Part shown: positions 20,074-22,697 of the stretch, piece by piece
Position numbering within the stretch: position 1 is the stretch's first letter
How the letters are laid out: every line of letters begins with the position of its first letter
Source: Gammaproteobacteria bacterium
GTDB lineage: Bacteria > Pseudomonadota > Gammaproteobacteria > Steroidobacterales > Steroidobacteraceae
Assembly: GCA_016874235.1 (NCBI GenBank)
Contig: VGUJ01000015.1
Location: 1-40,442, forward strand
DNA length: 40,442 nt
Direction: 5' to 3'
Made by a program: the position numbers and the translations under genes
The notes under the pieces: model-generated
Told to the model about the DNA's origin: nothing
The model's input: only the letters and a program-made list of their open reading frames with translations
Databases searched by the model: none

Positions 20074-20955
20074 TCAGGCGGGCTCGAGCATCAGGGCGCG
20101 AAGCTTTTTGATGGCATTGGCTTCGAGCTGACGGACGCGCTCGGCCGACACGCCGTATTTTGCGGCGAGATTATGCAATGTCGCTTTTTCCGCGTCACCG
20201 GCCATCCATCGGCTTTTCACGATATCCCGGCTGCGCTCGTCGAGCGACTGCATCGCTGCGATGAGGCGGCCGTGTTGGCCATCCTCCCATTCCTCGCTCT
20301 CGACCTGGTCTGCCGGATCGGCGTCGGGGGCGGGCAGGTAGGCCGCGGGTGCGTGGACTTCGTCTTCTTCGGAGTCGAGGGCCATCGGATCGAAAGACAG
20401 ATCCCGGGCGGACAGGCGACGTTCCATCTCGGTGACTTCACGCTCTGATACGCCGAGTTCCGTTGCCACGGTTCGGGTCTCTTCGGGGGAGAGCCAAGAG
20501 AGGTTTTTCTTGAGGCGACGGAGGTTGAAGAACAGCTTGCGCTGCGCTTTCGTGGTCGCGACCTTCACGAGACGCCAGTTGCGCAGGACATATTCGTGGA
20601 TCTCCGCCCGGATCCAGTGCACCGCGAACGAAACCAGACGAACGCCGATCTCGGGGTCGAACCGTTTGACGGCTTTCATCAAGCCGAGATTGCCTTCTTG
20701 GACGATGTCGCCCATCGGCAGTCCGTAGCCGGCGTAGCCGCGAGCGATATGAACCACGAAACGTAGATGAGACAGGACGAGGGCGCGGGCAGAGTCGACA
20801 TCGCCTTGGTCACGGAAGCGACGCGCGAGTGCTTGCTCGTCCTCGCGCGACAGCACGGGCACCTTCGAGACGCGATCGAGATACGCATCGAGGCTGCCGA
20901 GCGGGCCGGTCAGTGCGAGTTCGGAGTAGCGCGGGGCGAGGACTTGAGATGTCAT
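20074..20955 (-). CDS. rpoH: RNA polymerase heat-shock sigma factor RpoH (sigma-32)
   Basis: This 293-aa sigma factor directs heat-shock transcription. Regions 2.1-2.4 run from about 55 to 130 ([19 protein letters not shown] and [10 protein letters not shown]). The RpoH box QRKLFFNLR is at 138-146, which separates it from other sigma-70 members. Region 4.2 at the C-terminus contains [21 protein letters not shown] start at ATG 20955. The further ATG at 20994 would lie inside the spacer of a CIRCE operator, so the operator is better read as upstream leader. It follows ftsX on the same strand, as in E. coli, with 129 bp between. Confidence 0.95.
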
Positions 20956-20980
20956 TCGGGCGTGTACCTCGGACGAAATA

Positions 20981-21007
20981 TTAGCACTCAGCATTTTTGA
21001 GTGCTAA
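20981..21007. promoter_or_regulatory. CIRCE operator (HrcA-binding site) before rpoH
   Basis: TTAGCACTC (20981-20989), nine spacer bases, then GAGTGCTAA (20999-21007) matches the CIRCE consensus at every position. It sits 25 bases upstream of the rpoH start and downstream of an AT-rich stretch (21035-21085) that likely holds the promoter. HrcA bound here would repress rpoH. The hrcA gene is not in the window. Confidence 0.93.
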
Positions 21008-21084
21008 TCCCCACCGAGGTTCCATCAGGTCGCCAGAAAATCAATATCGAGTTAAATCTGTATATTGTTTCATTTATAGATCAA

Positions 21085-22011
21085 TCAGCCACGAGCTTCG
21101 ATGCGAGCAATCAATCTGGCTGCACCCAGCCAGGCGCCCAGCACGCCGAGCAGGGTGCCGCCCGAGATCAGTACGAGCGCTTCGAGAGGCTCGATCCCGA
21201 CCAGTGCGTACCGTCCACCGTAGAGGGAGGCGAGACGCCCGACAGGCTCGATGAGACTCGCGACGGCGAGGCTCACGATGCCGACCGCAGCGGCACCACC
21301 GAGCAGCCCAAAGATCACGCCCTCATAGAGAAAGGGCCGACGGACGAACGCGTTGGTTCCGCCGACGAGCTTGGTCACTTCGATCTCCGATCGACGAGCC
21401 CGAATCTCGAGTCGAATGGCGTTGCCCACCACCGCGAGCACGCCCACGCCGAGCACGATCGCGAAGACCGCAAAGACGTTCCGCAATAGGTCGAGGATGG
21501 CCGTCAGCCTGCGTACCCACTCGCCGTCGAACTGCACGGTCTCGACCTCGGGCCAGGCTGAGAGATAGCGCTTCAGCGATTCGACCCCCTGAGGGTTGGC
21601 ATAAGCGACATCCGGTCGGAGGGTGATGACGTGCGGCAGCGGATTACCCTGCAAGGCGTCGAGCGCGGCGCCGAACCCCGAGTACTGGCGAAACTCTTCG
21701 AGCGCCTCGTCGGCCGATATGAGGGTGGCCTCCTCCACACCGGGGCGTTGACGCGCCGCCTCGGCGAGTTGCTCGGCTTTCGCAAGCGGAACATCGGTTT
21801 TGAAGAATACGGAGAGCTCGATGGAGTCCGTCACATCGCCTGCGGCGATGCGGGCGTTTTTGACGAGTAGCCACAGGGTCGAGGGTAGCGCCAGAGCGAT
21901 GGCGATGACGAATATCGTCAGCACGGTCCCGAGGGGCTGGCGGATCAATCGACCGAACGCCGACAGTAAAGCCTGCGCGTGCCGCGAAAAGTACGTGCCG
22001 GGCGAAATCAT
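21085..22011 (-). CDS. ftsX: Cell-division protein FtsX
   Basis: This 308-aa permease-like subunit of the FtsEX complex links septal peptidoglycan hydrolase control to the divisome. The first membrane helix is near residues 25-50. A periplasmic domain follows, including the FFKTDVPLAKAEQLAE segment, and three further helices lie between about 175 and 300. The N-terminus of related proteins is cytoplasmic. It overlaps ftsE by 4 bp. The gene order ftsY-ftsE-ftsX-rpoH is conserved in gammaproteobacteria. Confidence 0.95.
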   Translation of the reverse strand: MISPGTYFSRHAQALLSAFGRLIRQPLGTVLTIFVIAIALALPSTLWLLVKNARIAAGDVTDSIELSVFFKTDVPLAKAEQLAEAARQRPGVEEATLISADEALEEFRQYSGFGAALDALQGNPLPHVITLRPDVAYANPQGVESLKRYLSAWPEVETVQFDGEWVRRLTAILDLLRNVFAVFAIVLGVGVLAVVGNAIRLEIRARRSEIEVTKLVGGTNAFVRRPFLYEGVIFGLLGGAAAVGIVSLAVASLIEPVGRLASLYGGRYALVGIEPLEALVLISGGTLLGVLGAWLGAARLIARIEARG

Positions 22012-22697
22012 GCGGCGACTCCTGACCCTGGAGCGGGGGGAGTAGCGCTGAACACCCGTCCCTCGTCGATGAGAATTTCGCGCTGTGCGAATTCGCGGAC
22101 GAGCGCCATGTCGTGCGTGGCAATGAGTACCGTTACGCCGACGTCTTGGAACCGACGGAACAAATTCATGACTTCTCGAGCGAGACCATGATCGAGATTT
22201 CCCGTGGGTTCGTCTGCGATGAGCACCGTCGGTCGTGCCACCACGGCGCGCGCAATACCGATGCGTTGTTGCTCGCCGATGGAGAGCTCGGCCGGCGACA
22301 CCCGTTCTTTTCCAGTAAGTCCGACTTGATCGAGCGCCGCACGAACGCGTTTATCGATGTCTCGGAAGCGCGTGTCCGACACCACGAGCGGCAAGGCGAC
22401 GTTATCGTAGACCGGTCGATCCATAAGCAGCTGATGATCCTGAAAGACGATACCGAGCCGACGTCGATAGGCTGGGATCGCACGCGCAGGCAGGTCGCTC
22501 GTTTCTTGTCCGTTGACCGTGACGGTGCCGCGAGTCGGACGCTCGATGAGTGTCAGCAGCTTGAGCACGGAGCTTTTACCGGCACCCGAGCGACCCGTGA
22601 GGAAAACGAATTCCCCTGCTTTTACTTCAAAAGAGACGTCGTGTAGCGCCTCGCGTCCATTCGGATACTGCTTGAAAACGTGATCGAAACGAATCAT
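22008..22697 (-). CDS. ftsE: Cell-division ATP-binding protein FtsE
   Basis: This 229-aa ABC ATPase is the partner of FtsX. Walker A is GRSGAGKS (35-42) and Walker B is VLIADEPTGNLD. The signature reads LSIGEQQR, with Ile where the usual LSGGEQQR has its first Gly; the second Gly and the Ser are kept, so ATP binding is probably intact. It overlaps ftsY upstream and ftsX downstream by 4 bp each, so all three are one coupled operon. The C-terminus ends with a short Pro/Ala tail. Confidence 0.96.
   Translation of the reverse strand: MIRFDHVFKQYPNGREALHDVSFEVKAGEFVFLTGRSGAGKSSVLKLLTLIERPTRGTVTVNGQETSDLPARAIPAYRRRLGIVFQDHQLLMDRPVYDNVALPLVVSDTRFRDIDKRVRAALDQVGLTGKERVSPAELSIGEQQRIGIARAVVARPTVLIADEPTGNLDHGLAREVMNLFRRFQDVGVTVLIATHDMALVREFAQREILIDEGRVFSATPPAPGSGVAA

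Follow-up and report, generated by a model that had tools for sequence, protein, structure and literature searches.

A CIRCE dyad overlaps a predicted sigma-E-type promoter upstream of rpoH in a Steroidobacteraceae genome and in many other Gammaproteobacteria

The rpoH locus and its CIRCE dyad

The stretch of DNA analysed here (40,442 nucleotides of a Steroidobacteraceae contig, referred to below as the window) carries the sigma-32 gene rpoH (TIGR02392, 398.7 bits; cut-off 323.1), preceded on the same strand by ftsX and ftsE (Table 1). Between ftsX and rpoH, both assigned by curated models, a consensus scan of the window finds an exact copy (0 mismatches) of the CIRCE dyad, TTAGCACTC-AGCATTTTT-GAGTGCTAA, at 20981-21007; in 100 dinucleotide-shuffled versions of the window the average is 0.01 matches even when 3 mismatches are allowed. 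The gap between the dyad and the rpoH ATG (20955-20953) is 25 nt, which bears out the original prediction of an exact CIRCE 25 bases before this gene. The same prediction placed an ATG at 20994 within the CIRCE spacer and held that it affects the choice of start codon. The location is correct; a role as the rpoH start is unlikely, because the spacer bases vary in relatives, the predicted transcription starts (see below) lie at this ATG or downstream of it, and an ATG aligned with 20955 is found elsewhere, namely in the five nearest named relatives (L037-L041). The 20994 candidate was therefore rejected in favour of 20955, which is furnished with GAGG.

Table 1. Features around the rpoH 5' region; positions are those of the window.
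Feature	Position	Strand	Basis or remark
rpoH (sigma-32) coding sequence, ATG at 20955	20074..20955	-	TIGR02392 model
GAGG, likely ribosome-binding site of rpoH	20967..20970	-	read from sequence
TGCTAATAT, candidate extended -10 for sigma-70, leading out of the right arm of CIRCE	20978..20986	-	TGnTAnnnT conservation
CIRCE operator (putative), exact dyad TTAGCACTC-N9-GAGTGCTAA	20981..21007	.	sequence match, conservation
Sigma-E-type -10 element TCAAA (predicted), 16 nt after the -35	20996..21000	-	last TC of CIRCE arm plus spacer
Sigma-E-type -35 element GGAACCT (predicted)	21017..21023	-	conserved block at this offset
ftsX, upstream of rpoH, same strand	21085..22011	-	curated model
ftsE, upstream of ftsX	22008..22697	-	curated model

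Both hrcA and further CIRCE sites were sought in the source genome (1.8 Mb in 27 contigs, 95% complete). The former is present as a single copy at C6:62758-63429 (PF01628, E 4e-64), its product being a full HrcA equivalog (TIGR00331, 340.3 bits vs 197.2), and it is followed downstream by grpE-like and then dnaK-like genes. As for the latter, a scan allowing up to 3 mismatches yields one weaker site, with 2 mismatches and 50 nt before the matched groES start, and no CIRCE at hrcA or dnaK. The element before rpoH thus combines the consensus dyad, an hrcA gene in the same genome and a position 5' of a heat-shock gene that is conserved in relatives.

Conservation of the dyad among relatives

Within the Steroidobacteraceae and Woeseiaceae, a CIRCE with at most 3 mismatches occurs no more than 300 nt upstream of rpoH in 108 of 110 loci hit by rpoH (63 exact, 36 with one mismatch, 8 with two and 1 with three), a count that includes the window itself twice and perhaps some other genomes twice as well. 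One of the two CIRCE-less loci, L036, encodes a different sigma factor and the other, L111, begins inside the gene; L079, with too short an upstream sequence, was excluded before the 110 were counted. Contigs with the titles Gammaproteobacteria, Steroidobacteraceae or Woeseiaceae make up the nearest named relatives, and most are metagenome-assembled. Three contigs carry titles that look wrong, since their rpoH genes are closest to the Steroidobacteraceae type: L041 (titled Klebsiella pneumoniae), L079 (Janthinobacterium lividum) and L116 (Burkholderiaceae), with 78, 70 and 68% rpoH identity to the window, respectively.

A pattern survey of 150 family genomes, allowing up to 2 mismatches, detected at least one CIRCE in 147 of them (110 with two, 32 with one, 5 with three and 3 with none). 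Among 30 loci taken from this survey, 28 sites lie at rpoH, one at groESL and one at neither; the last (L018, G045:C122) is CIRCE-like with 2 mismatches and perhaps due to chance. All 20 second CIRCE sites retrieved from the family lie at groES. Thirty-five genomes had one CIRCE or none, and 30 of these were searched for rpoH in a hunt for exceptions: 16 of the 30 gave a match and 14 gave none at 1e-60, and the dyad was found in 13/13 rpoH loci with readable upstream sequence, L291-L293 having been left out for want of any. Conservation in close relatives, on which the original prediction hinged, thus holds wherever the sequence upstream of rpoH can be read. When the upstream regions are aligned on the dyad (101 order-level sequences after duplicate removal), its arm letters prove nearly invariant and its flanks variable.

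Distribution in the class and the tie to hrcA

Is this arrangement a peculiarity of one lineage? In a sample of 140 genomes from 139 families of Gammaproteobacteria (in the GTDB sense), rpoH was matched in 130 and not in the remaining 10. The scan covered 130 rpoH loci other than that of the window, from 129 genomes, including a second, CIRCE-less rpoH-like copy in G178 that is kept out of the genome table relating hrcA to CIRCE. With up to 3 mismatches allowed, 94 of these 130 loci have a CIRCE before rpoH (47 of them exact), as against 0 of 2,600 shuffled controls. Judged from sequence, the CIRCE-rpoH wiring is therefore widespread in the class and no speciality of this lineage.

HrcA was matched in 105 of the 140 genomes, and the dyad co-occurs with it across families: the rpoH CIRCE is present in 90/98 genomes with hrcA vs 5/32 without (Fisher p 5e-16, no strict probability, because the families share ancestry and are not independent). 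The discordant genomes comprise eight with hrcA and no dyad and five with the dyad and no detectable hrcA (G266, G259, G229, G163 and G213); these five families might reflect incomplete genomes, recent loss of hrcA or another reader of the site. A tree of 66-residue RpoH fragments from 130 genomes resolves few supported pairs, one of which differs in hrcA and two in CIRCE. A tree of full RpoH was built for 51 of the 130 genomes: the window, which has hrcA, 20 genomes picked for low identity among the 98 with hrcA, and 30 from the 32 lacking it. Its only three supported pairs differing in hrcA show CIRCE changing the same way in 2.2 and the opposite way in 0.0 of them on average; for the only four that differ in CIRCE, hrcA goes the same way in 2.2 and the opposite way in 0.1. 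So small a number of pairs does not suffice to correct the association for shared ancestry.

The suspicion that the dyad is a functionless product of chance or a relic is scarcely credible given this link to hrcA, the near-invariance of the arms as opposed to the variable flanks, and the negligible chance expectation in the window.

A predicted sigma-E-type promoter fused to the dyad

The alignment on the dyad reveals a second conserved block, GGAAC(T)(T), whose first base lies 16 nt ahead of the dyad. Within the spacer, positions 2-3 are AA in the order sequences, and in the class position 3 is A; joined to the TC that ends the left arm, this gives the combined consensus GGAACTT-N16-TCNAA. 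A -35 element matching GGAACTT in at least 5 of 7 letters at offsets -17 to -15 accompanies 92/101 order and 63/94 class rpoH CIRCEs, and 0-9/101 and 1-7/94 at other offsets; none of 21 groESL CIRCEs has it under the same match threshold and offsets. The -35 together with A at spacer position 3 is found in 89/101 and 58/94, and neither of the two in 8/101 and 18/94. The fusion is thus common but not universal, since 31 of the 94 class loci lack the -35 and 18 lack both elements.

These elements resemble those of a promoter recognized by sigma-E (RpoE). The window reads GGAACCT-N16-TCAAA upstream of rpoH, conserved as just described; the original prediction had missed this element of the region. 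Upstream of rpoH in E. coli K-12 stands TGAACTT-N16-TCTGA, which we take to be promoter P3: the gene, the elements and the spacing are the same, and the distance from the end of the -10 to the rpoH ATG differs, 93 nt in E. coli P3 and 40 nt in the window. The source genome encodes RpoE (TIGR02939, 291.3 bits vs 236.15), with RseA_N and MucB_RseB domain genes downstream, and directly before rpoE stands CGAACTT-N16-TCTGA, the top match when both strands of this 3.6-kb locus are scanned. The P3 promoter of E. coli rpoH is described as RpoE-dependent (PMC8103513).

With at most 1 mismatch allowed, a search for the composite pattern gives 45 hits in the 140 class genomes, 43 of them at rpoH, and none in 135 genomes of other classes (from a phylum draw of 199 genomes, searched for the composite only). 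Each of the two matches off rpoH has 1 mismatch. One (L270 954-996, G210:C8:47853-47895) is located ~107 nt before a clpB-like gene (domains Clp_N, AAA and AAA_lid_9); the rpoH matched in that genome has no composite. The other (L271, G206:C77:14923-14965) lies near the 5' side of hrcA, suggesting possible hrcA autoregulation in the G206 family.

What of rpoH loci devoid of the operator? Most of the 36 CIRCE-less loci have no sigma-E-type match either, and 5 of the 36 show a strong one, compared with 0.3% of shuffles; loss of the operator with retention of the promoter in some lineages would be expected to leave such loci behind.

The groESL CIRCEs follow a different kind of promoter element. 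TTGA(A/T)(A/T), reminiscent of a sigma-32 -35 box, precedes the CIRCE in all 21 groESL loci, 12 of which show the strict -10 pattern and the remaining 9 GCTATNA; in the family, groESL CIRCEs come after a sigma-32-like box, not after a sigma-E-like one. The left arm of the groESL CIRCE is degenerate (TTAGCAGCC in 20/21 and TTAGCACCC in one; L002, L248-L267), unlike the rpoH dyads, which are mostly exact.

A possible sigma-70 start

Running out of the right arm, TGnTAnnnT is conserved in 101/101 order and 82/94 class rpoH CIRCEs, with its closing T in 0/21 groESL CIRCEs. Matching the consensus of an extended -10, it suggests a second, sigma-70-dependent start of rpoH, with a hexamer that in the window reads TAATAT, 4/6 to TATAAT. 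The AAT following the dyad was also considered as part of an extended operator and rejected, because it is not mirrored on the left (ATT in the left flank of 0/101 and 2/94, vs AAT in the right flank of 52/101 and 38/94) and because of that same absence of the closing T at groESL. A start just downstream of 20981 would still place its -10 under the dyad.

Could this extended -10 (of the TGCTAAAAT type) be the sole promoter under an HrcA-controlled dyad, the GGAACTT block serving a different factor or surviving as a decaying remnant of a promoter like P3? In the class, TGnTAnnnT is indeed steadier than the -35 block (82/94 vs 63/94). Nevertheless, the pair GGAACTT and TCNAA is jointly conserved with exactly the spacing of E. 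coli P3, and RpoE is encoded in the source genome, its own gene preceded by a promoter of that form, so that this explanation is unlikely. A control region combining an HrcA operator with a sigma-E promoter of the P3 type, and probably a sigma-70 start, accounts best for the data, with a probability of about 0.75.

A model for rpoH control

Under this composite reading, rpoH would be transcribed from a sigma-E-type promoter laid out like E. coli P3 and probably also from the sigma-70 extended -10 start slightly downstream. CIRCE lies exactly over both -10 elements, at the predicted starts, where bound HrcA would occlude them. HrcA is active as long as GroEL is free, as established for HrcA elsewhere, and GroE is reported to increase HrcA binding in other bacteria (PMC6032397). 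Free GroEL would thus keep HrcA active on the dyad and both rpoH starts shut, whereas misfolded protein, by occupying GroEL, would release HrcA and allow rpoH to be transcribed; envelope stress, acting through sigma-E, would raise its output further. Transcription of rpoH would in effect report how much GroEL is free, with the envelope signal from sigma-E as a gate. HrcA would also repress groESL, where its CIRCE stands just behind the sigma-32-like promoter, so that release of HrcA and the rise in sigma-32 would converge on groESL in a coherent feed-forward manner, the sigma-32 input being probable; newly made GroEL would then restore HrcA. Repression of rpoH by HrcA, the core of the original prediction, gains support of a comparative kind, from sequence conservation and the joint occurrence with hrcA; HrcA binding, repression, the use of either promoter and titration by GroEL are inferred.

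CIRCE is also known from work on Bacillus as a stem-loop that stabilizes mRNA, and it is worth asking whether the rpoH dyad might be such a 5' RNA element and not an operator. The dyad is long and close to the start codon, and read-through from ftsX would carry all of it; the starts predicted here, by contrast, lie within or past the dyad, and their transcripts would lack one or both arms. A pure stem would, moreover, tolerate paired changes, whereas the arm letters are nearly invariant, and presence of the dyad follows hrcA. A purely RNA-based role is consequently very improbable. A separate matter is an RNA thermometer of the E. coli kind, in which stable structure at the 5' end of the mRNA hides the start: a single 235-nt fold from the predicted start gave it no support, being no more stable than shuffled sequences (z +1.71, with 194 of 200 shuffles at least as stable).

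Relation to known systems

The control of groESL by HrcA and CIRCE is one close counterpart, with the same operator and the same repressor family, and it has its own site in the source genome, where the better CIRCE is found at rpoH (0 mismatches as against 2 at groESL). E. coli differs, in that the best CIRCE match upstream of its rpoH has 8 mismatches and in that it is not among the control genomes matched by the HrcA family. Our literature search found no earlier report of the class-wide sigma-E/CIRCE composite and its tie to hrcA. A 2003 survey by Permina and Gelfand, on heat-shock regulons in the beta-, gamma- and epsilon-proteobacteria, may already describe a CIRCE upstream of rpoH for some gammaproteobacteria, and Ueki and Lovley reportedly studied Geobacter RpoH in 2007. 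In the delta-proteobacterium Geobacter sulfurreducens, a CIRCE upstream of rpoH was already predicted in 2004 (PMC545781). Like the source genome, it combines an exact CIRCE before rpoH (at -51) with hrcA and a groESL CIRCE; unlike the source genome, which has the element at rpoH and groESL only, it carries a further one at hrcA-grpE-dnaK-dnaJ, and the accessible parts of that account describe no sigma-E promoter under the dyad (PMC545781). What is new, as far as the literature searched goes, is the fusion of the CIRCE dyad to a predicted sigma-E-type promoter and its wide occurrence in the class.

Evolutionary reading and significance

Did the E. coli arrangement come first? The composite layout occurs in many families, chiefly in genomes with hrcA, a distribution that suggests E. 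coli has a pared-down form of it. One may go further and propose, with about even odds, that the composite of CIRCE, sigma-E promoter of the P3 type and sigma-70 extended -10 was the ancestral form of rpoH control in Gammaproteobacteria (in the GTDB sense), with HrcA, as a reporter of free GroEL, placed above sigma-32 in most families; as part of the same proposal, lineages lacking hrcA, E. coli among them, would have shed the operator and retained no more than the P3 core. On that view, post-transcriptional regulation, the textbook mode of rpoH control, would have arisen later as a replacement.

Should these thoughts prove true, the two classic heat-shock circuits would form one hierarchy in the class instead of being alternatives, and a signal of cytoplasmic folding (GroEL via HrcA) and one from the envelope (sigma-E) would meet on ~45 bp before rpoH. 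E. coli would be recast as a derived case, and in any member of the class bearing hrcA, rpoH would be expected to become derepressed when hrcA is absent.
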